Positions 12,622 to 57,095 of a DNA stretch of 64,000 nt are shown here, one piece after another. How positions within the stretch are numbered: the first letter of the stretch is position 1; every line of letters starts with the position of its first letter. The notes under the pieces were generated by a model. The model was not told the DNA's origin. It searched no databases and was given only the letters and a program-made list of their open reading frames with translations. Source of the stretch: Bacillota bacterium (GTDB lineage: Bacteria; Bacillota; Clostridia; Oscillospirales; Acutalibacteraceae); contig JAETSA010000008.1 of NCBI GenBank assembly GCA_021769885.1, positions 62,001-126,000 of the forward strand, written 5' to 3'. The translations under genes and the position numbers were made by a program.

Positions 12622-12697
12622 GTTCTCGCCTGCCGGCTCGGTCGGTGCTTCTGAATACCTGCGGTATTCAGAGGTCTCCACCGGAGACCCGCACCCC
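12622..12697 (-). repeat. Three-way-junction repeat, copy 1
   Basis: Read on the minus strand: GGTGC, then hairpin GGGTCTCCGGTGGAGACC, then hairpin TCTGAATACCgcaGGTATTCAGA, then GCACC and the conserved tail GACCGAGCCGGCAGGCGAGA. Other copies are at 32101, 55334 and 56878. The stems differ between copies by paired changes. It abuts the tRNA-Trp fragment exactly. The remainder of the gap to 13005 holds an inverted repeat around AAACGGA/TCCGTTT (12752-12777) and no gene. Confidence 0.75.
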
Positions 12698-13005
12698 TCG
12701 ACACGCTCCGCGTGCCTCGGCTACAAGGCTTTTTACACAAACAAAAAATAAAAACGGACACCTTACGGCATCCGTTTCTATTTTTGTCTGCTGGGTACGA
12801 AAAAGATGTTCCCTGAAAATTTTGATTTTAGGTTCAGGATATAGCCCCTTTTTTCATTTTATAACTCCATACCTATTTCACATACAGTAACAATAACATT
12901 ACTCTGATTTCAATAAGTAGTAACAAGAAGCGTATAGTTTTTTACGAAATTCAGAAGACTTTAATAATTCAGCACATACCTTTTCAAATACATTTCTATT
13001 ATCAA

Positions 13006-13197
13006 ATGCACACATTCTACACAGAATGCCAAACTGCAGGAGTACCACCGAATATTACAAAAGAATTGATGGGACACTCGGATATTTCGGTAACTGCCAA
13101 AATTTATACTCATATGGTTGATGAAGTATTTGAGCAAAACATAAAACGATTAGCCGAATATGCTAATCAAAAATATCAAAAAGCAGTCAAAGAATAA
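13006..13197 (+). pseudogene. Tyrosine recombinase C-terminal fragment
   Basis: 63 codons with the motif MGHSDISVTAKIYTHM, which carries the catalytic His and Tyr of a tyrosine recombinase. The catalytic Arg and core-binding parts are absent, and the sequence is not of the same type as the integrase at 10656. ATG 13006 is formal only. It marks a second, older recombinase lineage near the left 187-bp repeat. Confidence 0.75.
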
Positions 13198-13274
13198 ATA
13201 CAAAACTAAAGATAGGGGCGTTGCTTAATTTACACCACCCCTACCTCTTATTTTGGTGACAAATAATATTTTAT

Positions 13275-13922
13275 CTATTTTTTAATCGCAACATCAATAA
13301 TTCCAATAATCACTGTTAATACGCCTAAAGCAATGAATATACCGCTTAGACCTATTGATGATTGCAAAGCAGATGTGAGCAAAAGTGCTGATGCAAAGCC
13401 TGTTGGAATACCTGTTAAAAGTACTGCACACCTGTTGGCCTTGCTGTTATTATCACAAGATGAAAGCAAATCACGGATAATATCTATTACTGCTATAATG
13501 CCACAGCAAACACTAATCATCATAAAAACAACATTGGCAATAATTGCGATACCTGATACGGTCTGCACTATCAAATCGCCTGTAAATCTGCTGATTGTAT
13601 AAGCTGACAAAAATGGAAGAACAATCCACAATACGCCCATTCCAATCATATAAAACGGATATATCTTTTTAGGTGCTTTGCATTTTTTCACTTTAACTGC
13701 AAAGGTGACAAACGCAAGTATGCCTGCCACAAGAAGTAAAGCCTTAATCAGAAAATCTCTTAAAGAGTCACCCATAAGCGTTGCAATTGAATAAGAGCCT
13801 GCTGTTTGCTCGGCAAAGGATATATAATATTTTACAGCAACAACACAAACGGATGATAAAACAACAGATGTTAAAAAGGAAGATAATAATTGCATAAAAT
13901 CATTTTTTGTATTTTGTTTCAT
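13275..13922 (-). CDS. Polytopic membrane protein in carbohydrate operon
   Basis: 215 residues with about six hydrophobic segments (roughly 11-33, 50-74, 88-110, 123-147, 165-188, 193-212) and short charged loops (KVKKCKAPKK, RDLLSSCDNNSK). I recognise no transporter motif. It starts 3 nt after the GH18 stop and must be co-transcribed with it. A role in anchoring or exporting the polysaccharide-acting enzymes is conceivable, but the sequence gives no direct evidence. Confidence 0.6.
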   Translation of the reverse strand: MKQNTKNDFMQLLSSFLTSVVLSSVCVVAVKYYISFAEQTAGSYSIATLMGDSLRDFLIKALLLVAGILAFVTFAVKVKKCKAPKKIYPFYMIGMGVLWIVLPFLSAYTISRFTGDLIVQTVSGIAIIANVVFMMISVCCGIIAVIDIIRDLLSSCDNNSKANRCAVLLTGIPTGFASALLLTSALQSSIGLSGIFIALGVLTVIIGIIDVAIKK

Positions 13923-13925
13923 TTT

Positions 13926-15374
13926 CTATTCTCCCTTCATATCATTCTTGATTTCTGCTCGACTGTCTATCGTTGTTTGAATTGACTTGAGCAGACTTAA
14001 ATCGTGATTGTACGGCAAATCCTCTGTAGCAGTAAAAATCATCATACCGCCAAGATTTTTTTCAATTGCGTATGCAGTTTTATCCATCGTCATCTGCGTG
14101 CCTGAAAACCACATACCGTCAACACAATTTTGGAATCTGTCGTGAGGTGTGTAATTCGGATCATCAAAATTAATCCATATTCCACCGCCGTCATAAGGTC
14201 TTGCATAAAACGGCAGACCAAGATTTATTTGCTCAGGCTTAAAGCCTTTGGCAAGGAAATATTCAACCGGCTGAACTGCACCACTTGAAAAAGAACTGTT
14301 GTGTCCGTTTTCGTCAAATAAATCGTAAGCCATAACTTCAATTTGGTCAAGACAATCAATGGCATCCTTACTCATATAAAAATTCCATGATGATACTGCA
14401 CAAGATAATTTCAGATTATGCTTTGAGAGTTCATTTTTCAAATTAATAAGATGTTCACTGAAAACAGCCCATTGCTTTTGGTTTGGATATTCCCAGTCGT
14501 AGCTGACACCGTCAAAGCCATATTCAATCAAAAAATCAACCGTGTTTTTAATCACTTCATCACCATGCTCGGCGAAAACTACATCCGGATTGCAGGCATT
14601 GAAAAATACGGTTGCAAAAATTTCGACATCCTTTTCACCGTAAAAATCTCTAATTTTTTGCACTGATGCTTTCAGGTCATTCCCTGTAAGTCCATCAGGA
14701 ATGATAAGTTCGCCGTTATCGTTCCACTTTGCAGCAGCGATAATGTGAATCTGGTTTACAACATCGCAGTATTCAGCGGGAAGATAATTACTTGATTCCG
14801 GGTCAAATAATTCGCCTTTGGCAAGCTGTGGTGTTACAACATAATCGGAAACTCTAAAAGAATTGCGTTCTTTTTTTTCGGTATTATATATTTCTATTTC
14901 TCTGATTTTAAATTTACTGTCAGATTCAAGCACTTCAAATTTAATTTGTTTTGCTGTAATATCATCAAAAGCACAATAACGATAATCATTGATTGCTTCC
15001 TGCTCATAAAATCTTTCCCAATGTTCATTTCCGGGAGTATCAATATAATATGACAGTCTGAATTTCTTAACATTCCAGCCCTTTTCACGCAGAATGATTG
15101 TATTAAATGTTTGTTCTTCTTTAAATGTCAGCACAAAGGAATCAGTTGTGCCTGAAGATTTCCACGCAGTATTTGTATCTGAATCCACGGCTTTTTTGAC
15201 ATTTGCTTTACCTTTAGCGTCTTCAATATTTTCAAGTTGTGTAACAGCTAAATTTTCAGAATCTACAGGACTTGGCAAATCTGAAAAACCATCGCCGGCA
15301 AAAGCAGTTGTGCCAATAATCAAGGCAAGGCACATTATTATTGCAACTGCTGAAATAATAATTTTCTTTTTCAT
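13926..15374 (-). CDS. Secreted GH18 family protein with discoidin domain
   Basis: 482 residues: signal peptide (1-26), an F5/8 type C (discoidin-like) domain at about 45-165, then a GH18 barrel. The active-site motif is DGVSYDWE at 288-295; the catalytic Glu295 and Asp293 are present, while the second Asp of the consensus DxxDxDxE is Ser291. Later barrel strands LSCAVSSWNF and IEVMAYDLFD and the loop LPFYARPYDGGG fit GH18. Substrates are likely beta-1,4 GlcNAc polymers or host N-glycans, with the discoidin domain binding sugar. It follows the glycosidase gene by 12 nt and precedes the membrane protein by 3 nt. Confidence 0.88.
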   Translation of the reverse strand: MKKKIIISAVAIIMCLALIIGTTAFAGDGFSDLPSPVDSENLAVTQLENIEDAKGKANVKKAVDSDTNTAWKSSGTTDSFVLTFKEEQTFNTIILREKGWNVKKFRLSYYIDTPGNEHWERFYEQEAINDYRYCAFDDITAKQIKFEVLESDSKFKIREIEIYNTEKKERNSFRVSDYVVTPQLAKGELFDPESSNYLPAEYCDVVNQIHIIAAAKWNDNGELIIPDGLTGNDLKASVQKIRDFYGEKDVEIFATVFFNACNPDVVFAEHGDEVIKNTVDFLIEYGFDGVSYDWEYPNQKQWAVFSEHLINLKNELSKHNLKLSCAVSSWNFYMSKDAIDCLDQIEVMAYDLFDENGHNSSFSSGAVQPVEYFLAKGFKPEQINLGLPFYARPYDGGGIWINFDDPNYTPHDRFQNCVDGMWFSGTQMTMDKTAYAIEKNLGGMMIFTATEDLPYNHDLSLLKSIQTTIDSRAEIKNDMKGE

Positions 15375-15386
15375 AAAATCTCCTTA

Positions 15387-17345
15387 TTAACAAATAAATA
15401 TATATTTATCCATTTTATTAATTTTGATTTCTTTGTCATTTATTTTAACAGTATATTTGTCACCATTGTTTATAAATATATTGAAGTGTTTACCACACAA
15501 TTCAATATTTTTTACTATAAAACTGTTCCAAGAATCAGGCAAGTTGGGTTTAATTTCAAATTTGTTAAATCCCGTTGGTCTGTAGCCTAAAATACCTTCA
15601 GTGAAAATCCTGAGATACAAAGCACTTTCAGCTGAAAGTTGTGCTGAATTACCCTCAGGAAACGCTTCAATAGGATAAGGAGGATGAAAGCCGAGCAATC
15701 GTTCATTTGTATATTTACTAAGCAAATCGAATGCTTTTTCCGTTTCGCCTACATAAAACAAACCTCGGAGTGCATAAAGCAAAGAACGGTCCCAATAGGT
15801 TTTTTCTCCGCTTCTTGTAAGCATACCGTTATCTCTACACAGTTTATCACTTAAAAGAGCACTTACAGTTGCCGATTTTCTCTCGTCAATTCCCATAACA
15901 AGAGGCAGACATATCCACGAACGAAGATTGCTTTCTTCTTTGCAGTAGCGATAAGTTTGATAACCCTCAACATCAGCAACGAAATAATTTTCAATACCTT
16001 CTTTTATCATTTGTGCATTTTTCAAAACATTCTCTGATTTTTCATCATAACCTAACTCACTGTATAAATAATGCAGAGAAACGAACGCATCATATGTAAT
16101 ACAAGCAGTAGAAAGATTTGCTTTTCCGCTTTTAAAACGATTTTCAAGCTCATCACTGTCACTTTTCACAATACCATCATCAGTAATCTGACTTTGAACA
16201 TATTTTTGTGCCGTTTCGATGGCAGGTAAAAAACCGATTGCCTTTTTCTTATCGCCTGTGGATAAAAGATAACGGCATAAACCATACAAAAACATAGAAC
16301 TGTCGCCACGGTCTCCTGCTCCATTCCATATATCATCACCGCAGGCAACAATACTTGTAGGAATGGCTTTATCCGCCTTTGCAAATTTTGAAAACAGTTT
16401 ATAACAGTTTATACTTTGCTTCTTTGCAGGAGCATAACCCAAATATGCAAACAATGGATTTGCATATTCACATTGGTCATTTGTCCACAAGGCAGCATAA
16501 TAATTACCGCCGCCGGGTGCATGCATCAACCCGTTTTTAGTATTAAAAATACTTTCGCTTGCTCTGATTTTACAAAACTCTGTCATAGTATTAATTGTGC
16601 TGTTAGGTGTGATAATCTGCATACAATTTTGAATTTGACTGATAAACTGTCGCCTTAAATTCAGTTGTTCTTCAATCTGCTTAGCATTCAGTCTTTCAGC
16701 ACCATTGCAAACAAGAATAATCTTTTCTTCAAAAGGTTCAAGAAAGACGATTTGCGATTTACAATCGGAATATGTATCATTCAAATACACATCAGTAAAC
16801 AATTCCTGTGCCTTATCTTCCACAAGGAAAAGTTTGCTGATTTTTTTATACGGATTTTTATTTTGAAGCGTAAAGGACTGTTGTTTATTGCTTGTATTTT
16901 TTAACACTATTTTTTCAAGCAATGCCTTTTTATCAAAAGATGGGCAGATTGTATGCTTTACCTCAATTTCATCAGCACGCTGACAAAATGTAAGAACGCC
17001 GTCAAATTCAACCTTTTCTGTTTTCAAAGATGAATTAAAGACCAAATCTACGCCGTTAAATCTGTAAGATAGACTACCCCTTGTTTCATTTGGAATAACC
17101 CTTATTTGCGGAAAAACGCAAAAGCGATAAATCTTCAACTTTTTATCAGAGTCAATTTTATAACTGATAATTGATGATGTCTCAAAGCCTGCCATTTCAA
17201 TATGATTTGCGTGTGGCAATTTATCACTATTAGCAGAAAAGTAAATTGCATTATCATTGCAGGAATAATATTTTCCTTTTGATTCAGTTCCTTTAAACTT
17301 AGTCCATAAAGGGAATATTCTTGGTTTTTTGTATATCATTTTCAT
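15387..17345 (-). CDS. Six-hairpin glycosidase-like enzyme
   Basis: 652 residues. The first ~270 form a beta-sandwich-like region; residues ~280-580 have the helical repeats of an (alpha/alpha)6 toroid glycosidase (ALWTNDQCEYANPLFAYLGY, CGDDIWNGAGDRGDSSMFLY, LLGFHPPYPIEAFPEGNSAQ), followed by a small C-terminal beta domain. There is no signal peptide, so it probably acts in the cytoplasm on imported oligosaccharides. The family could be near GH78, GH95 or related; I cannot decide without profiles. Acid residues such as Glu in PIEAFPEGN are candidates only. It lies 3 nt after the DUF5054 fragment. Confidence 0.7.
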   Translation of the reverse strand: MKMIYKKPRIFPLWTKFKGTESKGKYYSCNDNAIYFSANSDKLPHANHIEMAGFETSSIISYKIDSDKKLKIYRFCVFPQIRVIPNETRGSLSYRFNGVDLVFNSSLKTEKVEFDGVLTFCQRADEIEVKHTICPSFDKKALLEKIVLKNTSNKQQSFTLQNKNPYKKISKLFLVEDKAQELFTDVYLNDTYSDCKSQIVFLEPFEEKIILVCNGAERLNAKQIEEQLNLRRQFISQIQNCMQIITPNSTINTMTEFCKIRASESIFNTKNGLMHAPGGGNYYAALWTNDQCEYANPLFAYLGYAPAKKQSINCYKLFSKFAKADKAIPTSIVACGDDIWNGAGDRGDSSMFLYGLCRYLLSTGDKKKAIGFLPAIETAQKYVQSQITDDGIVKSDSDELENRFKSGKANLSTACITYDAFVSLHYLYSELGYDEKSENVLKNAQMIKEGIENYFVADVEGYQTYRYCKEESNLRSWICLPLVMGIDERKSATVSALLSDKLCRDNGMLTRSGEKTYWDRSLLYALRGLFYVGETEKAFDLLSKYTNERLLGFHPPYPIEAFPEGNSAQLSAESALYLRIFTEGILGYRPTGFNKFEIKPNLPDSWNSFIVKNIELCGKHFNIFINNGDKYTVKINDKEIKINKMDKYIFIC

Positions 17346-17348
17346 AAG

Positions 17349-18105
17349 TTAATCCTTATTATTCATTTTGATTTCAAATTCAAAGCGGGCATTATCCTCA
17401 TACCAAAGTGGAAAATTTGTACCCCACACATTGTTATAAAGAACATATGAAATACCGTCTTTTTTGATACTTTCAATTTTATTGTCATATTCAAGAATTT
17501 TGCCGTTGCCAATGGATATAAGCGGTGAATGATGATTGATAATATCAAAATTGCCGAAATCATTTTTTATAATGCACTTTTCAACTGCGTGCATATTTCT
17601 GCCTCCCATAGACACCGTACTGTTATAATCAATCCGGCTGTCAATCTTCACCATACTAAAATCAACAGTATTTGGATATAAATGAAGAAAAATTGCTTCT
17701 GTCAGCCTATTTGCATCCTTGCCGCTCCAAATAACATCAAATTTAAGTCCGTAACAATTTAATGTATAAATAATCTGAACATCCCTTGGAGCACCTGCCT
17801 TTTCACATACAGCACTTTCACATTTGAGATTTACAAAAACCTTTATCTCTGCATTTTCTTCACAAACATATGCACTGCTCATTTTATAATAGAAACTGCC
17901 ATCAGGATACTTACCATCAACACGTTTTAGTAATGGTCTGCCGAAATCAGGATAACCCCACACTGCATTTTTATCCATATTGCGTGCATAATGCTTAAAC
18001 CAGAAATTATAATCACGGCTTGTATATACACGATATTCAATTAATGCATTATTATTATTTTTTATGATTTCATTGCCCTTACACATTACAAATATATCAT
18101 ATCTT
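17349..18105 (-). pseudogene. DUF5054-type gene, N-terminal half lost
   Basis: From about NEIIKNNNN to the end, some 240 residues align with the gene at 2-1030 (for example EYRVYTSRDYNFWFKHYARN and PLLKRVDGKYPDGSFYYKM). The first ~20 codons of the 266-codon ORF (start 18149) are out-of-frame sequence of a fic gene, so the join lies near 18105. The N-terminal half and promoter of the operon are therefore missing. The operon order is DUF5054 remnant, six-hairpin glycosidase, GH18, membrane protein. Confidence 0.75.
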
Positions 18106-18375
18106 AACAACCATATAAAGTGCTGTTTCAAGATACATAAGCGGTGCAAATCTGAAATTACCTTTAGCCAAATTCACCGTACGCAGCTCTCCGGCAAAGT
18201 AATAAATATCTTCAAACAGATATTTGTGAATAGCGGCTAATGTCTTATATGTTCCGTCAGAAAGTAGCTTGAGAATGGCAAAGTCAAATAAATTAACAGC
18301 TTTCTTTTTACTGATTCGTTCTTCTCGTGCGAGTTCGGCAGAATCGGTAAGCCCTAATTTAATTTCAAGTGCCAT
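18106..18375 (-). pseudogene. Fic gene, 3' truncated
   Basis: From ATG 18375 (after AGAGGTG) about 88 residues match the N-terminal part of short Fic proteins, up to NLAKGNFRFAPLMYLETAL. The frame then runs into the DUF5054 fragment before the HPFxxGNGR catalytic motif, so no active enzyme can be made. It differs from the intact Fic at 9118, which is longer and has another N-terminus. Confidence 0.75.
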
Positions 18376-18540
18376 ATTGCACCTCTAAAAACTAAAATTT
18401 CTCGTAAGATTTATGTGTTTATTATAACATTTTTTGATTATAATTCAACTTAACGATTAGTATATACGCTCACCTTATGTGTTAAATGAATTAGGAATAA
18501 ACCTAAAAGCATTTTTATTTTAGCTCCCAAAAGTGACATC

Positions 18541-18723
18541 TTATTTGTCACTTTGAATGTCACTTTGAATTTTGTTTTTTGACTCTTCAAGATCTAGAAA
18601 ATCGATAACACTATCGGATGATGAAATTTCTGCCGGAACTTCGATATATTCTTCATCGTCATTGAACATCATATATTCGGCAGCGCGACCGGCAAGCCGC
18701 CTTTTAATTTCATTATCGTCCAT
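18541..18723 (-). CDS. Small acidic hypothetical protein
   Basis: 60 residues, rich in Asp, Glu and Ser, with ATG 18723. No motif of known antitoxins is evident, though its position one gene upstream of a fic remnant would fit a small Fic partner. A weak AGGTT precedes the start. The gap on either side (18376-18540 and 18724-18854) shows no further gene. Confidence 0.4.
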   Translation of the reverse strand: MDDNEIKRRLAGRAAEYMMFNDDEEYIEVPAEISSSDSVIDFLDLEESKNKIQSDIQSDK

Positions 18724-18854
18724 TCAATCGAACCTCGTTCTCGAATAAATATACTGACAAAAACTGTTATTAATCAAGTCTCTCTTCACAAGAAGTAAAC
18801 TCAAATTAACAAAACAAATGATTATAACTTATTAATTAGTAAATTAACATATAT

Positions 18855-19624
18855 TTAAAATAAGGCTAAAAGGAACAAATCTTCCATTGTTTCTATAACT
18901 TCTCCATCGTATCCTCCCGGAGAACCGTATGATTTATCAATGTTTTTATTTTTATTCCCATAGATTGCTGAAAACTCTGCAATAACAGTAACCAACTGGC
19001 ATACTTCTATTTCTTCGCAACTTTCAAAATTATATTCTATCAACAACTGCTGAATCGGTGTAGCCTTTTTGTCATTACTATTAAACGCATTAGCCAAAAC
19101 ATCTGTAATATGATTTTGATATTCAAACTCTCGACGTGGTATTGGTTTATCAGCATAGTATTCTAAGCTACGAGCAAAATACTTTCTCCTCCATCGTAAA
19201 AAACACTTTTATCATCAGGGAAGTGTTTATTTAGCACACTTTCTATTGCAACCAAACACTTTTCATAAATATTGTACTCACTGACTCGTAAATCCAAATC
19301 ACAATATTCCAAAATTCTATTTTGAACCTCTTTAGTACAACAGCAAAATTCTCTATACATCTCTCTATTGTAATAAAACAAATCATTATACATCGTGGCT
19401 ATTGCACATAGCGGAATAAGCCCTCTGTCCTTATAATATTTAGAAATAAATGATACCGCTTGTGATTTCACACATTCTTGATGACGCTGTTCATCACGCA
19501 TATCCTGCCTTTTTTCAAACTTTTCCATACGATTACTTTGCTTAATTTGCAGGATAGCAATAATTATTGTTGCTGTTAGGGCAACTACGGCACTAATAAT
19601 ACTTATCCAATCGGAAACACTCAT
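18855..19624 (-). pseudogene. Single-membrane-segment protein with frameshift
   Basis: The start is ATG 19624 after AGGAG (MSVSDWISIISAVVAL). One N-terminal membrane helix (~5-25) and a charged helix (KFEKRQDMRDEQRHQE) lead into a soluble domain. The frame ends early at 19163, but the overlapping frame continues naturally with ARSLEYYADKPIPRREFEYQ to 18855. Adding one A in GGAGAAAG near 19180 joins the two into a ~255-residue protein. Similar proteins are common in clostridial accessory DNA and have no known function. The lesion is in a short A run, so real decay and an assembly indel are both possible. Confidence 0.65.
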
Positions 19625-19898
19625 ATGGTTTCTCCTTTTACTATAAACGATAATTTTTTCTGAAAACACATCAACAAAACTTGAATTTTTCTCCGTGTTA
19701 TAGAGGGGTATTTTTTGGTATCGTGAAATCAAATGTAAACAAGGTGTAAAGATTTTTGAAAAACACCCGAACAAAATGGAAATTTTTCTCTGTATAGTAG
19801 AGGGATTTTTTTATAGGTGAATTTTTGTTTTCAAGTTTACTTATGCTTTTTTCTTTTTGAAAAAGTATCTCTCGAATAATACGAAAGGAGGCAGCGCA

Positions 19899-20411
19899 AT
19901 GAAAGAAAGCTACAAAAGTTTTGATGAGCTACCGATGATGTTATCGGTGTCGCAGGTTGCAAAGGTGCTTGGAATTTCTCGCACAAGGTCGTACGAGCTT
20001 GTCAATGAAAAAGGTTTTCCAAAAATAAAAATCGGCACAAGAATTGTTGTACCGAAAGATGAATTCAAGTTGTGGATTCAAAAACAAATCAAGAAAGCCT
20101 ACTTCGGCGAAAATACGCCCCTTGTGGCCGACGAGAACGGCGGTTATACAAGACCCGTAAACTTTCGAAAAAGATACTACCGAATTCTCAAATCCGCAGG
20201 GATTGAGCAGAAAGGTTTGCACAGTCTCCGCCACACATTTGCAACGAATCTTGTAAACGGTATTAAACAGGCAGACGGCTCTATAAAATCCTTAACTCCT
20301 CGCCAAGTCGCCGACCTGCTCGGTCACAGCACATCACAGATTACCGAATTGTATTATGTGAAAAAAGATACATCAAGACTTAACGGAATTACAGAGGGCT
20401 TTGAAATGTAA
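19899..20411 (+). CDS. Xis-integrase C-terminal fusion
   Basis: 170 residues from ATG 19899, preceded by AAAGGAGG. Residues ~1-65 are a complete excisionase-like HTH (SYKSFDELPMMLSVSQVAKV, IKIGTRIVVPKDEF). From AYFGENTPLV onward the ~103 residues match the integrase at 10656, with its HSLRH, LLGHS and ELYY motifs. The first catalytic Arg and the Lys region are missing, so strand cleavage is unlikely. The join is in frame with no stop and the ribosome site is strong, so a protein is probably made. It may be a deletion product of an xis-int pair or a DNA-binding modulator. The tail motif follows the stop. Confidence 0.8.
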   Translation: MKESYKSFDELPMMLSVSQVAKVLGISRTRSYELVNEKGFPKIKIGTRIVVPKDEFKLWIQKQIKKAYFGENTPLVADENGGYTRPVNFRKRYYRILKSAGIEQKGLHSLRHTFATNLVNGIKQADGSIKSLTPRQVADLLGHSTSQITELYYVKKDTSRLNGITEGFEM

Positions 20412-20418
20412 CCAAAAC

Positions 20419-20472
20419 GACCGTCCAAACAAAAAATTGGGCGGTCAAAATTTGCGTTGCTGTAAACAAAGA
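20419..20472. repeat. Integrase-tail motif, copy C
   Basis: GACCGTCC and GGGCGGTC form a hairpin 8-30 nt after the fusion stop, followed by AAAATTTGCG and TGTAAACAAAGAAAAAG. The hairpin differs from copies A and B but remains paired, and the tail is conserved. Next to it begins the CoiA-like gene. Confidence 0.6.
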
Positions 20473-20542
20473 AAAAGAATTGTTCTATTATTATAAATAT
20501 GTGATATAATATTTATAATATATTATTTTAGCAGGAGCTTTT

Positions 20543-22477
20543 ATGCATATTATATTACAGGTTGGAAATAAAATATTTTCTTCATATGGCAATAGTGATT
20601 GTGGCATTATATTAGAGTACAGTGGAATAGTTTCAAAGGAAAATATCATTAAATGGTTAGATGAAGAATTTGAAATTATGACTTCTGAAATTAATATAGA
20701 CCATACATATAGTGACTTTATAGTGGTCACAATGCCTTATAATGATAAAGTGTATTCAGGCAAGCTTATTTCTTTTTTTACAGCACTCAAGCATTTATCA
20801 CATATTGATAGTGATGAAATTAAAGAATATTTGTCTAATCAAAAAGCTCAATCATATATTAAACTGCAGTATGGATTAAGAGATAATAAATTAATATCTA
20901 TACAAGATATTCCAAAAGAGCAAAAAGGGCTTAAATGTAATTGCCGTTGCACAGGATGTGGCATGAGGCTTCAAGCAAGAATAGGCAACGGAAAAAGGCA
21001 ACCACATTTTGCTCATAATAACGAAGCTTGTGACATTGTTGTTGCACACCAAAGCGCTTTACATATTCTTGCTAAAGAGATTATTCAAGAAGAGAAAAAA
21101 ATAGGATTACCAGCACTTAAGGTTAATTTTGATGAAATTTCTAAAAATAATATGAAATCTTGGTATTATAAACTATCTGATGAAATGATTTATAAGTCAG
21201 CACAGACTGTAGCATGTGAGCAGGTAGTATTAGAAAAAAAGATTTCTGACATTGTCCCAGATATTATAGTAAAAATTGGTGAAAGATATTGCCTAATTGA
21301 GATTGCGGTTACCCATTTTGTTGATGAAACTAAAACTGAAAAAATAAAGAAATTAGGATTGCCTGTAATAGAAATCGATTTAAGTATGCTATCTGGGGTA
21401 GAACTTAGCAGAGATAATGTAAAAAAGATTTTACTTGAAGAGAGTGATTTAAAATATTGGATTCATAATCCCAAAAAAGAAGAGGCGATAATTTGGGCAA
21501 CAAATGAATATGAAAAGAAGGACAAAGAGATTCGTCATATTCAAGAAGAAATAGAACGGACTGAACGAGAAAAACGCCAAAGAAGAGTGGAAAAAAGAAA
21601 GATTGCTAAAGAAAAAATAGAACAATTGCAAATTGGCAACAATTATGAAAATGAAATTAAGCGTTTGAGAAACGATGTCGCATTTATGAATTTATTTAAG
21701 CACAGGTCTTTTTATAAAGATGGAATGGCAGTTCCATTCTATATGGACATTCCAATTACAGGAGAAGTTGTTTTTGACTGTGATAGAAGAATTTGGCAAT
21801 CAGCTATATTTGATGTGTTTATATACAATAGAAGATTAGACGGGAAGCCTGTTGTCAATATTAAAAAAATTTCAAAATGGGTAACTTCGTATCAGCAGGA
21901 ATTTAAACTGAATTGGGATTTGGTTTCAAAAGCATTTATTGCATTGAAAAATTCTTGTTATGAGAGAAGCTTACTTCAGATGTGTATAAAAGAGTATATA
22001 GAGTATCTATCCCTAATAGGGTTTCTTTCAAAGATTTATTATGAAGTTTTGTCTGCTCATAATCTAACTCCGCCTAATAAGGAAAAGGCGGCAGAATTAA
22101 AAGCAATAATAAATTCAGTTAATCAGTATTCGTGGAGTGTTACTGAGGAGATTTATGTTATGCTGAATCCTAATGAATATATTTTTAGCCATGATAGTAT
22201 TGGTAAAAATGCTTCTAATTTAACAAATAAAAGGATTGATGATATAAGCAATATTATGAAAGAGCAAAAAGAGAAGTCGAAACAATTAAAATACAATTCT
22301 GGTTTAGAAGAAATAATGTTTAATGACAGTTTATCAAGAAAGGAAAATGCTGTGGACAGTTTTGGCTTTAGATGGCTAACTTGCACATCATGTGGAGAAA
22401 TAAAAAGAGAAGATGAAATGGTATATTTAGATGGCAATGAGGGCTTATGCCGTGATTGCAGTCGAAGAAAAATATAA
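20543..22477 (+). CDS. CoiA-like nuclease with zinc-binding regions
   Basis: 644 residues. Residues ~129-165 carry a Cys/His cluster (CNCRCTGCGMRL, then HFAH and a later Cys) typical of CoiA-like proteins. Next comes a restriction-endonuclease-like core with SDIVPDIIV and CLIEIAVTHF (~235-260), giving Asp and Glu metal ligands. A long charged coiled coil (~320-375) and a unique ~250-residue region follow. A C-terminal zinc ribbon with two CxxC pairs (CTSCGE, CRDC) ends the protein. CoiA is a competence protein; large relatives on mobile elements may process DNA or act in defence. It has a GCAGGAG ribosome site and lies at the tRNA-Trp edge of the island. Confidence 0.75.
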   Translation: MHIILQVGNKIFSSYGNSDCGIILEYSGIVSKENIIKWLDEEFEIMTSEINIDHTYSDFIVVTMPYNDKVYSGKLISFFTALKHLSHIDSDEIKEYLSNQKAQSYIKLQYGLRDNKLISIQDIPKEQKGLKCNCRCTGCGMRLQARIGNGKRQPHFAHNNEACDIVVAHQSALHILAKEIIQEEKKIGLPALKVNFDEISKNNMKSWYYKLSDEMIYKSAQTVACEQVVLEKKISDIVPDIIVKIGERYCLIEIAVTHFVDETKTEKIKKLGLPVIEIDLSMLSGVELSRDNVKKILLEESDLKYWIHNPKKEEAIIWATNEYEKKDKEIRHIQEEIERTEREKRQRRVEKRKIAKEKIEQLQIGNNYENEIKRLRNDVAFMNLFKHRSFYKDGMAVPFYMDIPITGEVVFDCDRRIWQSAIFDVFIYNRRLDGKPVVNIKKISKWVTSYQQEFKLNWDLVSKAFIALKNSCYERSLLQMCIKEYIEYLSLIGFLSKIYYEVLSAHNLTPPNKEKAAELKAIINSVNQYSWSVTEEIYVMLNPNEYIFSHDSIGKNASNLTNKRIDDISNIMKEQKEKSKQLKYNSGLEEIMFNDSLSRKENAVDSFGFRWLTCTSCGEIKREDEMVYLDGNEGLCRDCSRRKI

Positions 22478-22493
22478 AATTTTTTGCAATTTT

Positions 22494-22680
22494 TGATGCT
22501 ATATTGATGATGTAACAGACGGAATTGTTGAAAACAGGTGGCAACAGATACAAAATTGACGCTTAAATTGAGCATCAAAATGCGTAATTTTAGACCGTGC
22601 GCCGACCTGAAACGGGCAAGTGAAAAGCCTTGAAACCACGCTGTTTCAAGGCTTTTGGTGTGGCAGGGGCAGAAGGACTT
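22494..22680. repeat. 187-bp direct repeat, right copy, at intact tRNA-Trp
   Basis: This copy equals 12435-12621 in length and order: TGATGCTATATTGATGATGT, a variable middle, the terminator hairpin and then the last 20 nt of tRNA-Trp. Here the tRNA continues intact. The block between the two copies is 10.06 kb repeat to repeat. Confidence 0.8.
22623..22656 (-). terminator. Terminator of the tRNA transcript
   Basis: AAAAGCCTTGAAA (22623-22635) and TTTCAAGGCTTTT (22644-22656) are perfect 13-bp arms with an 8-nt loop, just past the tRNA-Trp 3' end. On the minus strand the stem ends in a T run. The same hairpin occurs at 12564-12597. Confidence 0.85.
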
Positions 22681-22736
22681 GAACCCTCGGCACGCGGTTT
22701 TGGAGACCGCTGCTCTACCAACTGAGCTATACCCCT
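22661..22736 (-). tRNA. tRNA-Trp (CCA)
   Basis: 76 nt read on the minus strand, starting AGGGGTATAGCTCAGTTGGT and ending in encoded CCA. The acceptor arms AGGGGTA and TGCCCCT pair with one T-G. The anticodon arm GCGGT-CTCCAAA-ACCGC gives anticodon CCA. The T arm holds GTTCAAG. The 3' 20 nt are repeated at 12602-12621. Confidence 0.97.
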
Positions 22737-23329: not shown

Positions 23330-24110
23330 TTGTGCAAATCTGTCATTCTGAGCCGCAGGCGAAGAATTCCACACAAAGCAGCGTGAATTGGATTCACGCA
23401 TAGTAGTACTATCATCTATAAACCGCATATCGCACCCTCGGGGAGGGTGATTCCCCGCAGTGCGGGGAAATGTCGTGCCAAAGCACGACAAAAGGGCTCG
23501 CCGCTGTCAGCGGCTGTCGAGCGTAGCGAGACTGAGGGAGTTTTCCACGTCCGACCCCTACAGGATTGCACAAAATCGTCATCCAGCGGGTGGTCGGGTG
23601 CGGGCTTGCTCGCACCGCAGATTTTTATCCGGCTTCGACGGACGCGCAATGCACGCCCCTGCGTATTGCCGTTGAATTTATACAAAATCCGATCGACCTC
23701 GGGCGATTCGTGAATCGCCCCTACGAGTGTAAAGAACGACTTCTGTGTTGCTCTGCGAATTTCATTAGACTTCTGCGGGCGGGCACGGAGACCCGCCCCT
23801 ACGCGCCATCCCCGTAGGTCGGGGGCTTGCTCTCGCCGTTTCTGGTTACGCAGATTTTGGAATCGCCTCGGGTCGCCGACCCCTACGAGGTTCGCGTATC
23901 ACGGTTGGATTTACGCAAAATCCGACTGTGCTCAGGCGGGTGGAAATTTGCCATTGGGGCGCACAGATTTCGCGGAACGCGTCATCGGTCGTTCCCTACG
24001 AGATTTATACATCCCCGTTGGATTGTTCTGATTTTCGCGGGCGATTCGTGAATCGCCCCTACGGGTGGTGAAAAGGTGTCCGCTATGATTATATCTAAGT
24101 TCTTTGGCGC
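23330..24110. repeat. Dense array of dispersed hairpin repeats
   Basis: This ~1.4-kb gap has no credible gene. It contains GTCATTCTGAGC..GCGAAGAAT near 23341-23370, GGGCGATTCGTGAATCGCCC plus CTACG at 23701 and 24039, GCGGGC..CCCGC plus CCTACG near 23775-23803, and GGGTCGCCGACCC plus CTACG at 23870. Spacer and unit lengths are irregular, so this is not CRISPR. Short ORFs in both strands are products of the repeats. From 24111 to 24231 nothing is evident. Confidence 0.75.
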
Positions 24111-31064: not shown

Positions 31065-31300
31065 TTTGCGAGTAGGGGCGGGCTTCCACGCCCGCCTAAA
31101 CAAGGTCGAATTTCACACAAATCCAACGGCGAATCGCAATCTGTAAGCACGGTTGGATTTTTGCAAAAACCCGACGGTGAAACGCAACTCGTAGGGGCGA
31201 TTCACGAATCGCCCGCGGACGGGGTACAGCTTCGCGACATTTTCCCTAATAGGGAAATCTTCCCTGCCCCTACGCGCAAATTAAATTTATTTTGTGCAAA
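31065..31300. repeat. Dispersed hairpin repeats
   Basis: The 31061-31392 gap holds GTAGGGGCGGGC (31072), GTAGGGGCGATTCACGAATC (31191-31210) and further degenerate units including CCCTAATAGGG. A repeat of GGTTGGATTT..GCAAAA.CCGACGG separates the units. No gene is seen. Confidence 0.65.
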
Positions 31301-31854: not shown

Positions 31855-32100
31855 CCCCGCACAGCCCTCGTGGCTGTCTGCGGGCGAACGCAGTTCGCCC
31901 CTACGGCGTAGGGAACAACCTCTGTGTTGTTCCGTAAATTTTGCACAACATTAATTTGATTTGCGCGCCCCTACGAGGGTTGTACTCACCGTTAGGTTGT
32001 GCGAAATCCAACCGTGCTCGGGCGATTCGTGAATCGCCCCTACAGAGTTTGTGCATCGCCGTTGGGTTGTGTGGATTTTTACGTTTTCTCGGGCGGATGA
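31855..32100. repeat. Dispersed hairpin repeats
   Basis: Units: GGGCGAACGCAGTTCGCCC plus CTACG (31882-31905), GTAGGGAACAACCTCTGTGT ending TGTTCC (31909-31934) and GGGCGATTCGTGAATCGCCC plus CTACA (about 32022-32045). No gene is visible in 31843-32194. Confidence 0.7.
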
Positions 32101-32180
32101 AGGTGCGGGTGTCCAGTGGACACCTCTAAGCGAAGCTTAGAAGCACCGACCGAGCCGGCAGGCGAGAACGCCGCCCCTAC
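32101..32180 (+). repeat. Three-way-junction repeat, copy 2
   Basis: GGTGC, hairpin GGGTGTCCAGTGGACACC, hairpin TCTAAGCgaaGCTTAGA, GCACC, then GACCGAGCCGGCAGGCGAGA and CGCCCCTAC. The first stem has TGTCC/GGACA where copies 1 and 3 have TCTCC/GGAGA. Confidence 0.8.
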
Positions 32181-38419: not shown

Positions 38420-38830
38420 GTGAGGGTGCATTGCGCACGCCGTGCGGCTCTGCATAAATTTTCGGTGATTCGCAACCCGTAGGGGGCGATGTGGATTCCC
38501 CTATTAGGGGAAATGTCGCGAAGCGACAAAAGGGTAATGGCGAAGCCGTAACTCGGCGCCCCGCCAAAGTCTGATGAAATTCCACGGAACAACACAGAGG
38601 TTGTTCCCTACGGTACACAAAAACCGCACCGTTTGTAGGGGCGATTGCGCGTAGTAGGGGCGGATGTAGATTCCCCTTTTAGGGAAAATGTCGCGAAGCG
38701 ACAAAAGGGTAATGGCGAAGCCGTAACTTCATCCGCCCGCGGACGGACGAGACGTCCGTCCCTACGCGTACGTCGATTACATTGCGCTGAGTGAGATTCT
38801 TCGCTTCGCTCAGAATGACAGAATTATACG
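38420..38830. repeat. Dispersed hairpin repeats
   Basis: Units include GTAGGGGGCGATGTGGATTC with CCCCTATTAGGGG, two near-identical ~55-nt blocks (about 38490-38555 and 38665-38730) reading AATGTCGCGAAGCGACAAAA and GGGTAATGGCGAAGCCGTAA, a GGACGGACGAGACGTCCGTCC hairpin (38752) and GAGATTCTTCGCTTCGCTCA (38793). No gene is seen. Confidence 0.7.
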
Positions 38831-52897: not shown

Positions 52898-52900
52898 TTC

Positions 52901-53526: not shown

Positions 53527-54039
53527 TTATTTTAACGGCGCTAAGAACATCAGCATCTGTCTGCCCTCAAGCTTCGCAGGCTTTTCCACCGAGGAAAAGT
53601 CCTTGCAGGCTTCGGCGAACTTCGCCATAGAGTCAATCCCCAAATTCGTATGCGCCATTTCGCGTCCGCGGAAGCGGATGGAAACCTTAACCTTGTTGCC
53701 CGCCTTTAAAAATTTCTCGGCATGCCGCGCTTTTGTTTCAAAGTCATGCGTATCAATGTTCAAAGACAGACGAATCTCTTTGATTTCCACCGTTTTTTGA
53801 TTTTTGCGTGCTTCTTTTTCGCGCTTTGCCTGTTCAAAACGGTATTTGCCGTAATCCATAACCTTGCAGACGGGCGGCTTTGCGTTCGGCGCGATTTTTA
53901 CGAGGTCGAGATTTTTCTCCTCCGCCAAACGGCGCGCATCTCTTGCCGACATAATGCCCAGCTGTTCGCCCGAATCGCTGACGACGCGGACTTCACGGTC
54001 GCGGATCTGCTCATTGATCTGCATTTCTCTGGTACTGAT
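53527..54039 (-). CDS. infC: Translation initiation factor IF-3, likely ATC start
   Basis: 170 residues. The N domain (QINEQIRDREVRVVSDSGEQ), helical linker (GKYRFEQAKREKEARKNQ) and C domain (KVKVSIRFRGREMAHTNLG) are complete. IF-3 screens the start codon and initiator tRNA on the 30S subunit. AAGGAG at 54048-54053 is 8 nt from ATC 54039, while GTG 54048 overlaps that site and ATG 54024 is 23 nt away. An unusual start codon is typical of infC and lets IF-3 limit its own synthesis. A terminator hairpin lies directly upstream. Confidence 0.95.
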   Translation of the reverse strand: MSTREMQINEQIRDREVRVVSDSGEQLGIMSARDARRLAEEKNLDLVKIAPNAKPPVCKVMDYGKYRFEQAKREKEARKNQKTVEIKEIRLSLNIDTHDFETKARHAEKFLKAGNKVKVSIRFRGREMAHTNLGIDSMAKFAEACKDFSSVEKPAKLEGRQMLMFLAPLK

Positions 54040-54061
54040 AGCGATCACTCCTTAAAAATTT

Positions 54062-54091
54062 AAAAAAGCGTGAACGAAGACACGTTCACGC
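54062..54091 (-). terminator. Attenuator hairpin in the infC leader
   Basis: GCGTGAAC and GTTCACGC (54068-54075, 54084-54091) form a stem followed on the minus strand by TTTTTTAAATTTTT and then the infC ribosome site. Placed inside the leader, it should stop transcription unless relieved, as in the L20-controlled infC operon of Bacillus. Confidence 0.8.
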
Positions 54092-54195
54092 GAATACACA
54101 CAAATCCCGTAAAATCACGAAATTCAAACGGTATTGACCTGTTTTGTACGGAACGCACAGGTGAGAACGGAACGGTTCTTCTTTATTGCCCAAAT

Positions 54196-54224
54196 AGAAT
54201 ACAATATTTTTCGCCGTTTGTCAA
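54196..54224 (-). promoter_or_regulatory. Promoter of the infC operon
   Basis: TTGACA (54219-54224) and TATTCT (54196-54201) have a 17-bp spacer on the minus strand. The predicted leader is about 150 nt, long enough to hold the attenuator and an L20-binding structure. Confidence 0.8.
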
Positions 54225-54277
54225 GGATTATTTTGAAAAGGAAAAATAAAAGTACTATTTCAGACTGTAGAAAAACC

Positions 54278-54415
54278 TTTTTCCTCCCTCTGACGAGGGA
54301 GGTGGCACGCGCTTTGCGCGTGACGGAGGGAGAGAAAAGCTTGATAACTAAGCTTTTTAACTACCCCTCAGTCGCGCTACGCGCGACAGCTCCCCTGACA
54401 AGGGGAGCAAAATCC
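54278..54415. repeat. Repeat pair of the CTCCCTC type
   Basis: CTCCCTCTGACGAGGGAGGT, then GGCACGCGCTTTGCGCGTGA and GGAGGGAG, followed by CAGTCGCGCTACGCGCGACA and CTCCCCTGACAAGGGGAG. Each unit is made of nested inverted repeats. The two lie back to back between infC and the RHH gene. Confidence 0.65.
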
Positions 54416-54437
54416 ACTTTTTCGACACGCTGAAGTA

Positions 54438-54626
54438 CTATTTTTTGCCCGATTTGGCTTCGGAATGCGGCATATGATTGAGAGCGTAGTCGATGCACTG
54501 ATTGATAAATTCGCTTCTGCTCAAATCATATTCCGCCGCGAGCCTGTCAACTTTTTCCAACTTGTCAAAATCTATACGAATGGTAATCGGGTCTTTTTTG
54601 TATTGCTTCGGAACAAAATCAGACAT
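54438..54626 (-). CDS. Ribbon-helix-helix protein
   Basis: 62 residues from ATG 54626 (MSDFVPKQYKKDPITIRID). The strand-helix-helix pattern ITIRIDFDKLEKVDRLAAEY plus LSRSEFINQCIDYAL fits a CopG/Arc-type DNA-binding protein. ATTCTA and TAGAAT lie upstream near 54668-54683 and could be its operator. It has no toxin partner next to it; the SLOG gene is divergent. Confidence 0.8.
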   Translation of the reverse strand: MSDFVPKQYKKDPITIRIDFDKLEKVDRLAAEYDLSRSEFINQCIDYALNHMPHSEAKSGKK

Positions 54627-54722
54627 TTTATCATACACCTCTTGCAATCAGTATATGCTTTATTGTATTCTAAATATAGAATCGTTTAGCGAATACAAAT
54701 AAGAATACAAAGGTGATGAAAT

Positions 54723-55193
54723 ATGAAGAGACAAACCTGCTGCTTTACGGGACACAGAAAAATACCGCCCGAGCAATACAGTCGTATTGCCGAACGGCTT
54801 AAATCAGAAATTACAGCGTTGATTCATCAGGGTGTTATCTATTTTGGCGTTGGCGGTGCTTTGGGTTTCGACACAACGGCGGCGCAAACCGTACTTGCAT
54901 TAAAAGAGATTTATCCGCAAATCAAACTGATTCTTGTGTTCCCGTGCGAAACGCAAACACACGGTTGGCAGAAAACAGATACAGAAATATATGAAAAGAT
55001 AAAAACCGAGTGTGATAAATACGTTTACATCTCAAAAGAGTACACATACGATTGTATGCACAAACGAAACCGCCATTTAGTCAATTACAGTAATTATTGC
55101 ATTTGTTATCTGACAAAGCACACAGGCGGTACGGCTTACACTGTTGCATACGCAAAAAGAAGGGGTCTGACTGTTATTAATCTTGCTGAGTGA
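54723..55193 (+). CDS. SLOG/YpsA-like Rossmann protein
   Basis: 156 residues resembling the DUF1273/YpsA branch of the SLOG superfamily (CCFTGHRKIPPEQ, FGVGGALGFDTTAAQTVL, TGGTAYTVAYAKRRGLTV). The glycine-rich loops suggest nucleotide binding. SLOG proteins act in nucleotide signalling and some prokaryotic conflict systems; this short form has no attached effector. It is divergent from the RHH gene, sharing a ~96-bp control region, and its last 17 nt overlap the fucosidase frame. Confidence 0.85.
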   Translation: MKRQTCCFTGHRKIPPEQYSRIAERLKSEITALIHQGVIYFGVGGALGFDTTAAQTVLALKEIYPQIKLILVFPCETQTHGWQKTDTEIYEKIKTECDKYVYISKEYTYDCMHKRNRHLVNYSNYCICYLTKHTGGTAYTVAYAKRRGLTVINLAE

Positions 55194-56709
55194 AAAACAA
55201 CATATAGAAAAACCAGCCCTCGCGGCTGTCCGTTTTCGGGCGAACACAGTTCGCCCCTACGATTTGTAGGGAACGACCGATGACGCGTTCCGAAAATTTT
55301 GCACAAAATAAGTTGGATTCACGCGTAGTGGCGGGGTGCGGGTCTCCGGTGGAGACCTCTGCATACGGAGTATGCAGAAGCACCGACCGAGCCGGTAGGC
55401 GAGACATTCCACGCCCGCCATCGGATTGTGCGAAATCGGCGTCGGTCGTGACGGGGGCGTCAAAAATCGCAATACGTGAAAATCCGATGATTGTACCCTT
55501 GAACACGCAGTTGTTTTTGCCGTCGTAAATCTCGAACGCTTCTACGCGTTGGGATTTGGTTGTATCCTCGGTTAGATACACACGGTCAACCGATTCGCGC
55601 GGAAAGCGCAAGGTAATCTCGCGACCGTCGTTGGAAACCGTTTTTTCGCTTTGCAGGCGGCAGGCTTCCTCTTTTTTGAGCCATTCGCCCATCTCCCGCA
55701 AGCGTTTCACATCACCTTTGGCGAACTGCCCTTTGCGGTTCGGCGGGATGTTTAGCAAAAATAAACTGTTATTGCCGACGGAATTGTAATAAATCCGCAT
55801 CAAATGATCAAGACTTTTGCGCGTGAAAAATTGCATTGGATGATAAAACCACCCGAGCCGAATGGATACATCCACTTCGGCGGGATACCACATAAACTCG
55901 TCGAAATCCGCCAGGAATTTGCGCGAGCCCATATCGGGGAGCATCACATCCTGACAGCGTTTCTGAAAAGCGCGCATATCGTCGGTATCCTGACAGTTGG
56001 CGGCGAAATTCTGCTGATCGTATTGGAATTTCGGCACAACGTTCCATTCGCTTTCGCGCGTTTTTCCGCTCTCGTTGCCAATCCAGCGCACATCGGGCGC
56101 ACAGCCCGACATCACGATATTCGGCTGTAATTCGACAGCCGTTTTCCAAATGCGTTCAAAATCGTATTTCTGCGCAGGCTGACCGTCTGCCTTGGCACCA
56201 CACGCGCCGTCAAGCCACAGCATAAAAATTTCGCCGTAATTTGTCAAAAGCTCCGTCAGCTGTGCAATATAAAAATCGTTGTAGGCGGGCGTACCGTACA
56301 GCGGACAGTTTCTGTCCCACGGCGAAAGATACACGCCGAATTTCAGCCCGTATTTGCGGCAGGCATCCGCCGTTTCGCGCACCACATCGCCCTTGCCGTT
56401 TTTGTAGGGACTGTTTTTTATGGAATGCTCGGTCGTTTCCGTCTGCCAAAGGCAAAAGCCGTCGTGATGCTTGCAGGTCAAAATCAGACCTTTCATACCT
56501 GCATCCTTAATGGCGCGGCACCAGCCGTCCGCGTCCTGCGCCTTGGGATTGAAAATCTGCGGGGATTCCTTGCCGCTTCCCCATTCGCGTCCCGTAAAGG
56601 TATTGACGGTATAATGCACAAAGGCATAATATTTCATTTCCTGAATGCGAAGCTGCCGCGCATTCGGCACGATGCTTGTATACAGGTCAATGCGTTCCTG
56701 TTCTGTCAA
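55177..56709 (-). CDS. Alpha-L-fucosidase (GH29), repeat-derived C-terminus
   Basis: 510 residues from TTG 56709, ten bases after AAGGAG; the longer frame begins in repeat DNA. The GH29 barrel is clear: KYYAFVHYTVNTFTGREWG, CKHHDGFCLWQTE, FGVYLSPWDRN and IFMLWLDGACG, whose Asp is the likely nucleophile. There is no signal peptide, so it probably acts on imported fucosylated glycans. From about residue 428 (SDGGRGMSRLPARSV) the reading frame runs through dispersed repeats, including three-way-junction copy 3, to a stop inside the SLOG gene. A terminator-like hairpin precedes the ribosome site. Confidence 0.9.
   Translation of the reverse strand: MTEQERIDLYTSIVPNARQLRIQEMKYYAFVHYTVNTFTGREWGSGKESPQIFNPKAQDADGWCRAIKDAGMKGLILTCKHHDGFCLWQTETTEHSIKNSPYKNGKGDVVRETADACRKYGLKFGVYLSPWDRNCPLYGTPAYNDFYIAQLTELLTNYGEIFMLWLDGACGAKADGQPAQKYDFERIWKTAVELQPNIVMSGCAPDVRWIGNESGKTRESEWNVVPKFQYDQQNFAANCQDTDDMRAFQKRCQDVMLPDMGSRKFLADFDEFMWYPAEVDVSIRLGWFYHPMQFFTRKSLDHLMRIYYNSVGNNSLFLLNIPPNRKGQFAKGDVKRLREMGEWLKKEEACRLQSEKTVSNDGREITLRFPRESVDRVYLTEDTTKSQRVEAFEIYDGKNNCVFKGTIIGFSRIAIFDAPVTTDADFAQSDGGRGMSRLPARSVLLHTPYAEVSTGDPHPATTRESNLFCAKFSERVIGRSLQIVGANCVRPKTDSREGWFFYMLFFTQQD
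55205..55333. repeat. Dispersed hairpin repeats within the fucosidase 3' end
   Basis: GGGCGAACACAGTTCGCCCC plus TACG (55238-55261) and GTAGGGAACGACCGATGACG with CGTTCC (55267-55292) are read through by the fucosidase frame. Confidence 0.7.
55334..55405 (+). repeat. Three-way-junction repeat, copy 3
   Basis: GGTGC, hairpin GGGTCTCCGGTGGAGACC, hairpin TCTGCATACGGAGTATGCAGA, GCACC, then GACCGAGCCGGTAGGCGAGA. It lies within the C-terminal part of the fucosidase reading frame. Confidence 0.8.
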
Positions 56710-56724
56710 TGCGTTTTCACTCCT

Positions 56725-56757
56725 TAAAAAACGCCCTGTAGAAAAGTACAGGGCGTT
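56725..56757 (-). terminator. Terminator-like hairpin upstream of the fucosidase ribosome site
   Basis: AACGCCCTGT and ACAGGGCGTT (56730-56739, 56748-56757) form a stem followed on the minus strand by TTTTTTAAGGAG. It either ends upstream transcripts or acts as a leader attenuator, as its layout equals that before infC. Confidence 0.7.
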
Positions 56758-56799
56758 GCGTGTTAAAATCAAATTGCGAGGATGCACAAAGTTTGTTCG

Positions 56800-57095
56800 G
56801 CGGGCGCGCAATGTGCCCCTACGGGGTTGTATTTTCTCGTTGGTTTTTGCAGAATTGAAATGTGCTCGGGTCGCCGAGGTGCGGGTGTCCGGTGGACACC
56901 TCTAAGCGAAGCTTAGAAGCACCGACCGAGCCGGCAGGCGAGAACGTCGGCCCCTACGACTTGTGCATCACCGTTGGCTTTATGCGAAAACCAACCTTGC
57001 TCGGGCGCTTCGTGAAGCGCCCCTACGGAATTGCGTTTTATCGTTAGGTTTGTGCGGATTTTGCGGGCAAACGCAGTTCGCCCCTACGAATTGGC
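56800..57095. repeat. Dispersed hairpin repeats
   Basis: The fucosidase-lipoprotein gap contains GGGCGCGCAATGTGCCCCTACG (56804), GGGCGCTTCGTGAAGCGCCC plus CTACG (57003-57027) and GGGCAAACGCAGTTCGCCC plus CTACG (57064-57088), around the three-way-junction copy 4. No gene is seen. Confidence 0.7.
56878..56958 (+). repeat. Three-way-junction repeat, copy 4
   Basis: GGTGC, hairpin GGGTGTCCGGTGGACACC, hairpin TCTAAGCgaaGCTTAGA, GCACC, then GACCGAGCCGGCAGGCGAGA and the CCCCTACG end. Nearly identical to copy 2. Confidence 0.8.

Follow-up and report, generated by a model that had tools for sequence, protein, structure and literature searches.

The window analysed here is a 64,000-nucleotide stretch of a Bacillota bacterium of the family Acutalibacteraceae (assembly GCA_021769885.1, contig JAETSA010000008.1, positions 62,001 to 126,000), in which a small dispersed repeat, hereafter the element, occurs four times. 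Each copy is nested in another repeat: three lie in repetitive extragenic palindromic (REP) sequences with a GTAG head, and one in a partial tRNA-Trp (Table 1). The element is about 53–72 nt long. An outer stem, P1 (GGTGC/GCACC), surrounds one or two hairpins, P2 and P3, and is followed on its 3' side by GAC, a tail hairpin, P4, and a terminal GAGA(C/A). P2 directly abuts P3, and the junction holds one G and one A. The original prediction, made from the letters of the window, had listed the four copies correctly, with P2 as TGTCC/GGACA in two and TCTCC/GGAGA in two, and with P3 perfectly paired in all (CTAAGC in two copies, TGCATAC and TGAATACC in one each). The common tail that it described holds except in copy 3, where the tail has GGTAGG. 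The 25-base end of the repeat occurs four times in the window compared with none in 100 shuffles. What the prediction missed is that the tail, GACCGAGCCGGCAGGCGAGA, is itself a fourth, covarying hairpin, P4, which reads C-GA-GCC-GGCA-GGC-GA-G with apparent tandem G·A pairs.

Table 1. Copies of the element in the window, their hosts and uninterrupted counterparts. Coordinates of the copies were converted from covariance-model matches on the window's contig (G000:C24).
Feature	Position	Strand	Details
Element copy 1 (model match)	12624-12695	minus	GGTGC, P2 hairpin, P3 hairpin (TCTGAATACC/GGTATTCAGA), GCACC, tail hairpin P4
Host of copy 1	12602-12716	minus	partial tRNA-Trp-like arm (CGTGTCGAGG ... 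CAAGTCCTTCTGCCCCTGCCA)
Intact tRNA-Trp (cca)	22661-22736	minus	uninterrupted GAGGGTTCAAGTCC, empty counterpart of copy 1 host
Solo GTAG REP without element (example)	31191-31215	plus	GTAGGGGCGATTCACGAATCGCCCG
Element copy 2 (model match)	32102-32167	plus	P2 TGTCC/GGACA, P3 CTAAGC/GCTTAG
Host of copy 2	32090-32180		REP arms CGGGCGGATGAA ... AACGCCGCCCCTAC, GTAG head on minus strand
Element copy 3 (model match)	55335-55404	plus	P2 TCTCC/GGAGA, P3 TGCATAC/GTATGCA
Host of copy 3	55325-55420		REP arms GTAGTGGCGG ... CATTCCACGCCCGCCA, GTAG head on plus strand
Element copy 4 (model match)	56878-56943	plus	P2 TGTCC/GGACA, P3 CTAAGC/GCTTAG
Host of copy 4	56866-56957		REP arms CTCGGGTCGCCGA ... AACGTCGGCCCCTACG, GTAG head on minus strand

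The element recurs throughout the window's genome (G000; 2.32 Mb in 38 contigs). An 18-base pattern, AGAAGCACCGACCGAGCC, is found there at 107 places with up to three mismatches, versus one for the reversed control, and a covariance model built from 16 copies of this genome gives 126 matches (E ≤ 0.001; 150 of 1226 candidates scored), a few of them cut by contig ends; 94 copies were parsed, 45 of them distinct. Loci of other genomes differ in their letters, with the pairing maintained. P1 is GGTGC/GCACC, GGCGC/GCGCC or GGCAC/GTGCC; P2 is GGTCTCC, GGTGTCC, GATCTCC or GGTCGCC, each with its partner; P3 is free in sequence and mostly 5–9 bp long; and P4 is GCC/GGC, GGC/GCC, GTC/GAC or GAC/GTC. 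A form of 53 nt that lacks P3 occurs in genome G101 (locus L295), and matches of the same length are found in other families of the class, the letters having been inspected for L295 only. A further small hairpin insert, CCGTCCCCGACGG, is seen in P4 of L149 and in P2 of L196 and L235.

Across genera, all helices covary. In alignment A2 (38 rows), 98.5% of the cells are paired, and double changes affect 15 of the 25 pairs (8.1 in shuffles), in 99 cells versus 28.8. In alignment A4 (105 rows), which used 95 of 126 fetched loci and left out 31 (L243–L273), 97.5% of cells are paired, compared with 35.5–46.2% in slid controls, and double changes are found in 17 of 25 pairs (9.8 in shuffles) and 195 cells (54.5 in shuffles). 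Alignments A2–A4 were fitted to the covariance model. Loci L163–L242 and L274–L277 were chosen by an exact tail pattern, so that tail conservation is imposed there; A2 and A3 were not so chosen. At the level of sequence, the alignments show a fold kept by compensatory changes. The proposal of selection on, or copying through, a folded form thus holds in a larger, multi-genus alignment, where covariation is strong, and the many different hosts show that the copies are not fragments of a single known longer repeat.

How did the copies come to lie where they do? In L180, the contig contains two stretches whose flanks are about 98% identical, one with a copy at 3534–3595 and one without it: the filled site reads CCAAGG[GTGC...GAGAC]CGCTGTCCTTGG and the empty one CCAAGG-A-CGCTGTCCTTGG, the empty form being a hairpin loop. 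L242 is filled as TGGGGG[TGC...GAGAC]AGGTGG where L150 has an empty TGGGGGAGGTGG, and two viral contigs, L090 and L277, show AAAGG[GTGC...GAGAC]CCGGG filled and AAAGG-T-CCGGG empty. Copies are also nested in copies: in L199 one lies within P3 of another (GCAGG[...]CAGAAG), and in L232 a diverged copy lies within P2 of another, with the GG replaced by the inserted copy. In G000 the empty forms are solo GTAG REPs, such as GTAGGGCGGGGG^CTTGCCCCCGCC, GGCGGATGAAGG^CATCCGCC, GGGTCGCTGAGGG^CAGCGACCC and GGACAGCCGCGAGGG^CTGTCC. The partial tRNA-Trp is occupied at the same point, GAGG^...CAAGTCC, by window copy 1 and in L085, L087, L096, L097, L103, L106 and L291, with an intact tRNA-Trp nearby in the window, L085, L087 and L096.

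None of the resolved empty sites or REP pairs has a target duplication, and 0–3 target bases are lost or changed. The five alignments or nested sites that were inspected, and likewise the REP pairs, already have GG at the left junction of the empty target. Among 75 independent sites, kept from 260 flank pairs by removing similar flanks and retaining matches of 58–76 nt with at least 22 nt of flank, 73 have a purine at −2, 61 a G at −1 and 73 a C or A at +1; the 43 sites not picked by tail pattern agree (42, 34 and 41, respectively). The ends, TGCGGG... and ...GCGAGAC, are not terminal inverted repeats of the kind found in DDE miniature inverted-repeat transposable elements (MITEs). By these comparisons the element inserts as a unit, (G)TGC...GAGA(C/A), right after a pre-existing GG and without target duplication, and its hosts include REP hairpins, the partial tRNA-Trp arm, its own copies and open reading frames (ORFs) that stay open. 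The suggestion of a non-autonomous mobile unit is supported by the empty sites, the nested copies, the lack of any gene inside and copy numbers of 0–126 within the genus.

The host of copy 1 is a second, distal copy of the tRNA 3' end located at an island edge, and the window has a 188-bp direct repeat at 12435–12622 and 22494–22681. The region from 7597 to 22736 is an island array at tRNA-Trp, with a phage integrase at 10647–11870 and a 165-nt repeat in three related copies (ending at 7761, 11870 and 20411), two of them at ORF ends. Elsewhere in the window, ATTCTGAGCC..GAAGAAT repeats (23337–23393, 38777–38820, 61218–61261 and 63140–63196) have apparent tandem G·A pairs like those of P4.

Most of the copies listed in G000 lie inside GTAG REP arms, and in three genera (G000, G010 and G075) a copy is found in a gene for the REP-associated transposase, RAYT, in the same codon window, at about codon 41–47, the one in G000 with stops. 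The element might then be no more than a REP whose loop is elaborate, with RAYT moving it and its GTAG hairpin as one piece. However, the element itself has no GTAG head and occurs facing either way with respect to GTAG; the clean empty sites lack the element alone; and in other genomes GTAGG/CCTAC occurs within 22 nt at just 8 of 69 independent sites, compared with 1.9% at random and 4.6% at RGG positions. Such an account is improbable and is contradicted as a general one, but may hold for secondary amplification within G000. The RAYT genes of L078, L081 and L100 contain in-frame GTAG-type hairpins (STVGRGLAPA, IVGGDDLGAP), also at about codon 41–47.

The window and the G000 stretches together hold 447 GTAG-headed hairpins in 329 distinct forms, so that many REP families with different stems coexist in one genome. 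Three copies (G000:C33:49325, C24:172329 and C29:59374) are mosaics that join the left arm of one REP type to the right arm of another, a sign of recombination between copies, and solo REPs such as GTAGGGGTCGCTG-TTCT-CAGCGACCC resemble deletion footprints of the element. Mosaics and possible footprints would fit a spread with no dedicated enzyme, through replication template switching, palindrome correction and ectopic gene conversion between hairpins, and palindrome correction would also yield perfect stems with few G-U pairs. On the other hand, the exact GG junction across genera, the insertions into unrelated coding sequence (a relaxase, a phage methylase) and the nested insertions that obey the same junction rule speak against it, and we consider this explanation very improbable.

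The element is not confined to one species. Of the 39 genomes of the genus, 20 carry it. It also occurs in 37 of 200 genomes of the taxonomic family (35 of 135 genera, by stricter filters) and in 14 of 391 from the class, of which 10 lie outside the family; no more than 25 candidates per genome were scored in the family scan and no more than 12 in the class scan, and copy numbers there are lower bounds. The exact tail pattern was found, among the matches listed, in rumen and gut metagenome-assembled genomes labelled Ruminococcus, Ruminococcaceae, Oscillospiraceae, Clostridia and similar, one of them labelled Alistipes, as well as on four IMG/VR contigs. Two Ruminococcus phages carry a copy with 85.9% identity inside a small predicted gene; the plasmids searched gave no match. 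Along contigs the element has no obvious strand bias, and the strand of GTAG is uneven between contigs. No occurrence of the exact tail strings was found in the literature searched. Rfam, at the gathering threshold, recognised two tRNAs in the window and nothing at the element, and in four other loci, searched at E ≤ 1, the single weak match, to osmY, lay outside the element. A cis-acting RNA regulator or small RNA kept for the benefit of the host would explain why both the fold and unpaired letters are conserved, but is hard to reconcile with the lack of an Rfam match, with 0–126 copies among species of one genus, and with scattered hosts and insertion in ORFs and in the element itself; it is extremely improbable.

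Is the folded form DNA or RNA? Of the standard pairs, 51 of 3323 are G-U when every row is counted and 38 of 1578 when rows picked by tail pattern are excluded; in 28 tRNAs from the same loci the figure is 44 of 585. The P3 loops of 122 parsed copies are C-GNA-G in 68 and C-GNNA-G in 9 (77/122); in rows not picked by tail pattern, the numbers are 27 and 6 of 58. P4 loops in such rows are GNNA in all 64 parsed. GNA and GNNA loops form unusually stable DNA mini-hairpins, according to parts of PMC4686876. Scarce G-U pairs and loops of these kinds favour folded single-stranded DNA over RNA as the probable active form, and they disfavour the structured RNA that the original prediction had offered as an alternative. 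Mobility at the RNA level, in which a small structured RNA would be inserted into RNA hairpins, reverse-transcribed and incorporated by recombination, a route discussed for mitochondrial GC clusters, would nevertheless agree with the strongly conserved fold, the exact junctions and the lack of target duplication, and RNA-mediated copying of a small hairpin element is argued for in a portion of PMC4478555. A reverse transcriptase is present in 16 of 37 element-bearing genomes of the family versus 48 of 163 others, a difference that is not significant (p = 0.12). Several many-copy genomes (G010, G087, G091 and G101) have no reverse transcriptase, however, and insertions are found on either strand of REPs and ORFs; with the few G-U pairs, this makes a route through RNA rather unlikely.

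The hosts suggest some attraction to hairpins. A near-junction stem score of at least 5 is found at 24 of 75 independent sites, where 12.7 are expected (reached by 1 of 3000 permutations), and of at least 7 at 10 sites, where 2.2 are expected (0 of 3000). With the window's own genome excluded, the corresponding numbers are 21 of 69 versus 11.1 (3 of 3000) and 7 of 69 versus 1.9 (4 of 3000). This test superseded one of whole-flank duplex energy, in which the mean was −10.7 versus −9.5 in permutations (0 of 5000 as low) and the median rank just 0.34. Hairpin targeting is real but partial, a preference and not a rule.

Copies also lie within genes. In L083 a copy is found within a relaxase ORF, the best PF03432 stretch restarting right after the insert, at residue 153; in L100, the frame of a RAYT ORF of 225 codons is open through the copy; and in L277 a copy lies within an ORF matching DNA_methylase. 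The homologue in L090 has a second copy, and that ORF alone (320 of its 404 residues searched) has no Pfam match. In the window, an alpha-L-fucosidase ORF on the minus strand (55177–56811) reads copy 3 in frame at its 3' end. Among 144 distinct full-length copies, 70 have no stop in any of the six frames, compared with 7.8% of shuffles; in rows not picked by tail pattern, it is 28 of 68.

We regard it as probable (roughly 0.6) that the element represents a new family of non-autonomous mobile DNA of very small size, a miniature unit of about 53–72 nt that would be moved by a single-strand enzyme acting in trans. The active form would be the folded plus strand, as single-stranded DNA. The target's GG would complete P1 by pairing with the element's own CC in a guide-like step, and a nuclease or transposase specific for single strands would join the element to an exposed single strand; a preference for hairpins would follow from this. 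The enzyme would most likely be of the HUH Y1 kind, such as RAYT or the TnpA of IS200/IS605. Within the genus, Y1_Tnp genes are found in all ten genomes with at least 10 copies versus 13 of 29 others (p = 0.002), and in 15 of 20 carriers of any copy versus 8 of 19 non-carriers (p = 0.054). A GTAG hairpin lies immediately upstream of each of the two RAYTs in L079 and L081, which fits the layout expected for REPtrons (PMC8266576, in part). Intact RAYT genes of G000 lie at C21:3079, C14:5867 and C26:108113. An HUH Y1 enzyme is the leading guess for the motor, still unproven. IS110 was rejected as motor in this genus: PF02371 is found in 5 of 39 genomes and in none of the ten with at least 10 copies, the window's own included.

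Several observations weigh against transposition of this kind. Family-wide, the presence of the element does not track Y1_Tnp (20/37 versus 76/163, p = 0.47), the RAYT profile (17/37 versus 65/163, p = 0.58) or either of them (24/37 versus 91/163, p = 0.36), and three of the nine family genomes with at least 8 listed copies (G087, G101 and G174) have neither. The loci inspected include no gene-carrying relative with the same ends: the 38 left-only and 33 right-only matches, in locus stretches and not whole genomes, are variants, truncations or contig-edge cases. Most independent sites have no flank pairing. The loops of the copies are homologous to each other and not independent, and the scarcity of G-U pairs could stem from palindrome correction at replication. 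Further pair types in A4 are weak (37 versus 33.7; 36 of 500 shuffles reach 37), and in P1 only the third pair varies often, so that the idea of a GG/CC guide rests on the empty sites and not on covariation.

How does the element compare with known systems? REPs and REPINs of the GTAG families, mobilised by RAYT (TnpA-REP), are likewise small, folded, high-copy repeats with HUH Y1 transposase genes (PMC3733652 and PMC8266576, both in part), and in G000 the two are physically nested. The element differs in having no GTAG head of its own, in its branched fold and separate tail hairpin instead of a single palindrome, and in being found outside REPs in other genomes; from DDE MITEs it differs in having neither terminal inverted repeats nor target site duplication. 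Judged from the features compared, membership fails in both cases. PATEs, miniature elements derived from IS200/IS605, reportedly have hairpins near their ends, no target duplication and a fixed short left target, and the element likewise has hairpins near its ends and inserts without duplication 3' of a fixed short target. The left target of IS200/IS605 is a site of 4–5 bases and not GG, and no transposase-bearing relative with the element's ends was seen among the loci inspected. Guide sequences in IS200/IS605 pair with the cleavage sites, as sections of PMC8266576 describe. By analogy, the element would work like a miniature element that transposes as a single strand; membership among IS200/IS605 derivatives is unproven.

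Other systems share some traits. Mitochondrial double-hairpin elements and GC clusters are also tiny, non-coding mobile units with adjacent hairpins that merge or nest, but they are organellar, and GC clusters have a putative AG target duplication (PMC4478555, in part), which the element does not. IS1397, ISKpn1 and IS621 also use REP palindromes as targets, but are full-size insertion sequences with their own transposase (PMC1525189, in part). IS621 belongs to the IS110 family, which is absent from the high-copy genomes of this genus. The Rickettsia palindromic elements (RPE) are not known to share the sequence or fold of the element; like them, the element is small and found in ORFs that stay open. 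RPE are small palindromic repeats inserted in frame into ORFs (PMC3733652, in part).

A bolder proposal, possible but tentative, is that the element represents a distinct mobile class: a branched single-stranded DNA of 53–72 nt that would use the target's GG to finish folding (target-primed folding), be joined into exposed hairpin strands by an enzyme yet unlinked to any element, and be selected to stay free of stops as an in-frame insert in genes. The element adds peptides of about 21–24 residues to ORFs without closing them. If it is mobile as proposed, it would be, to our knowledge, among the smallest mobile elements known, and structure-guided insertion would become testable on a 60-base oligonucleotide. 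Several matches sit at contig ends, and the family would then explain part of the dense repeats that fragment the assemblies of rumen and gut Clostridia.

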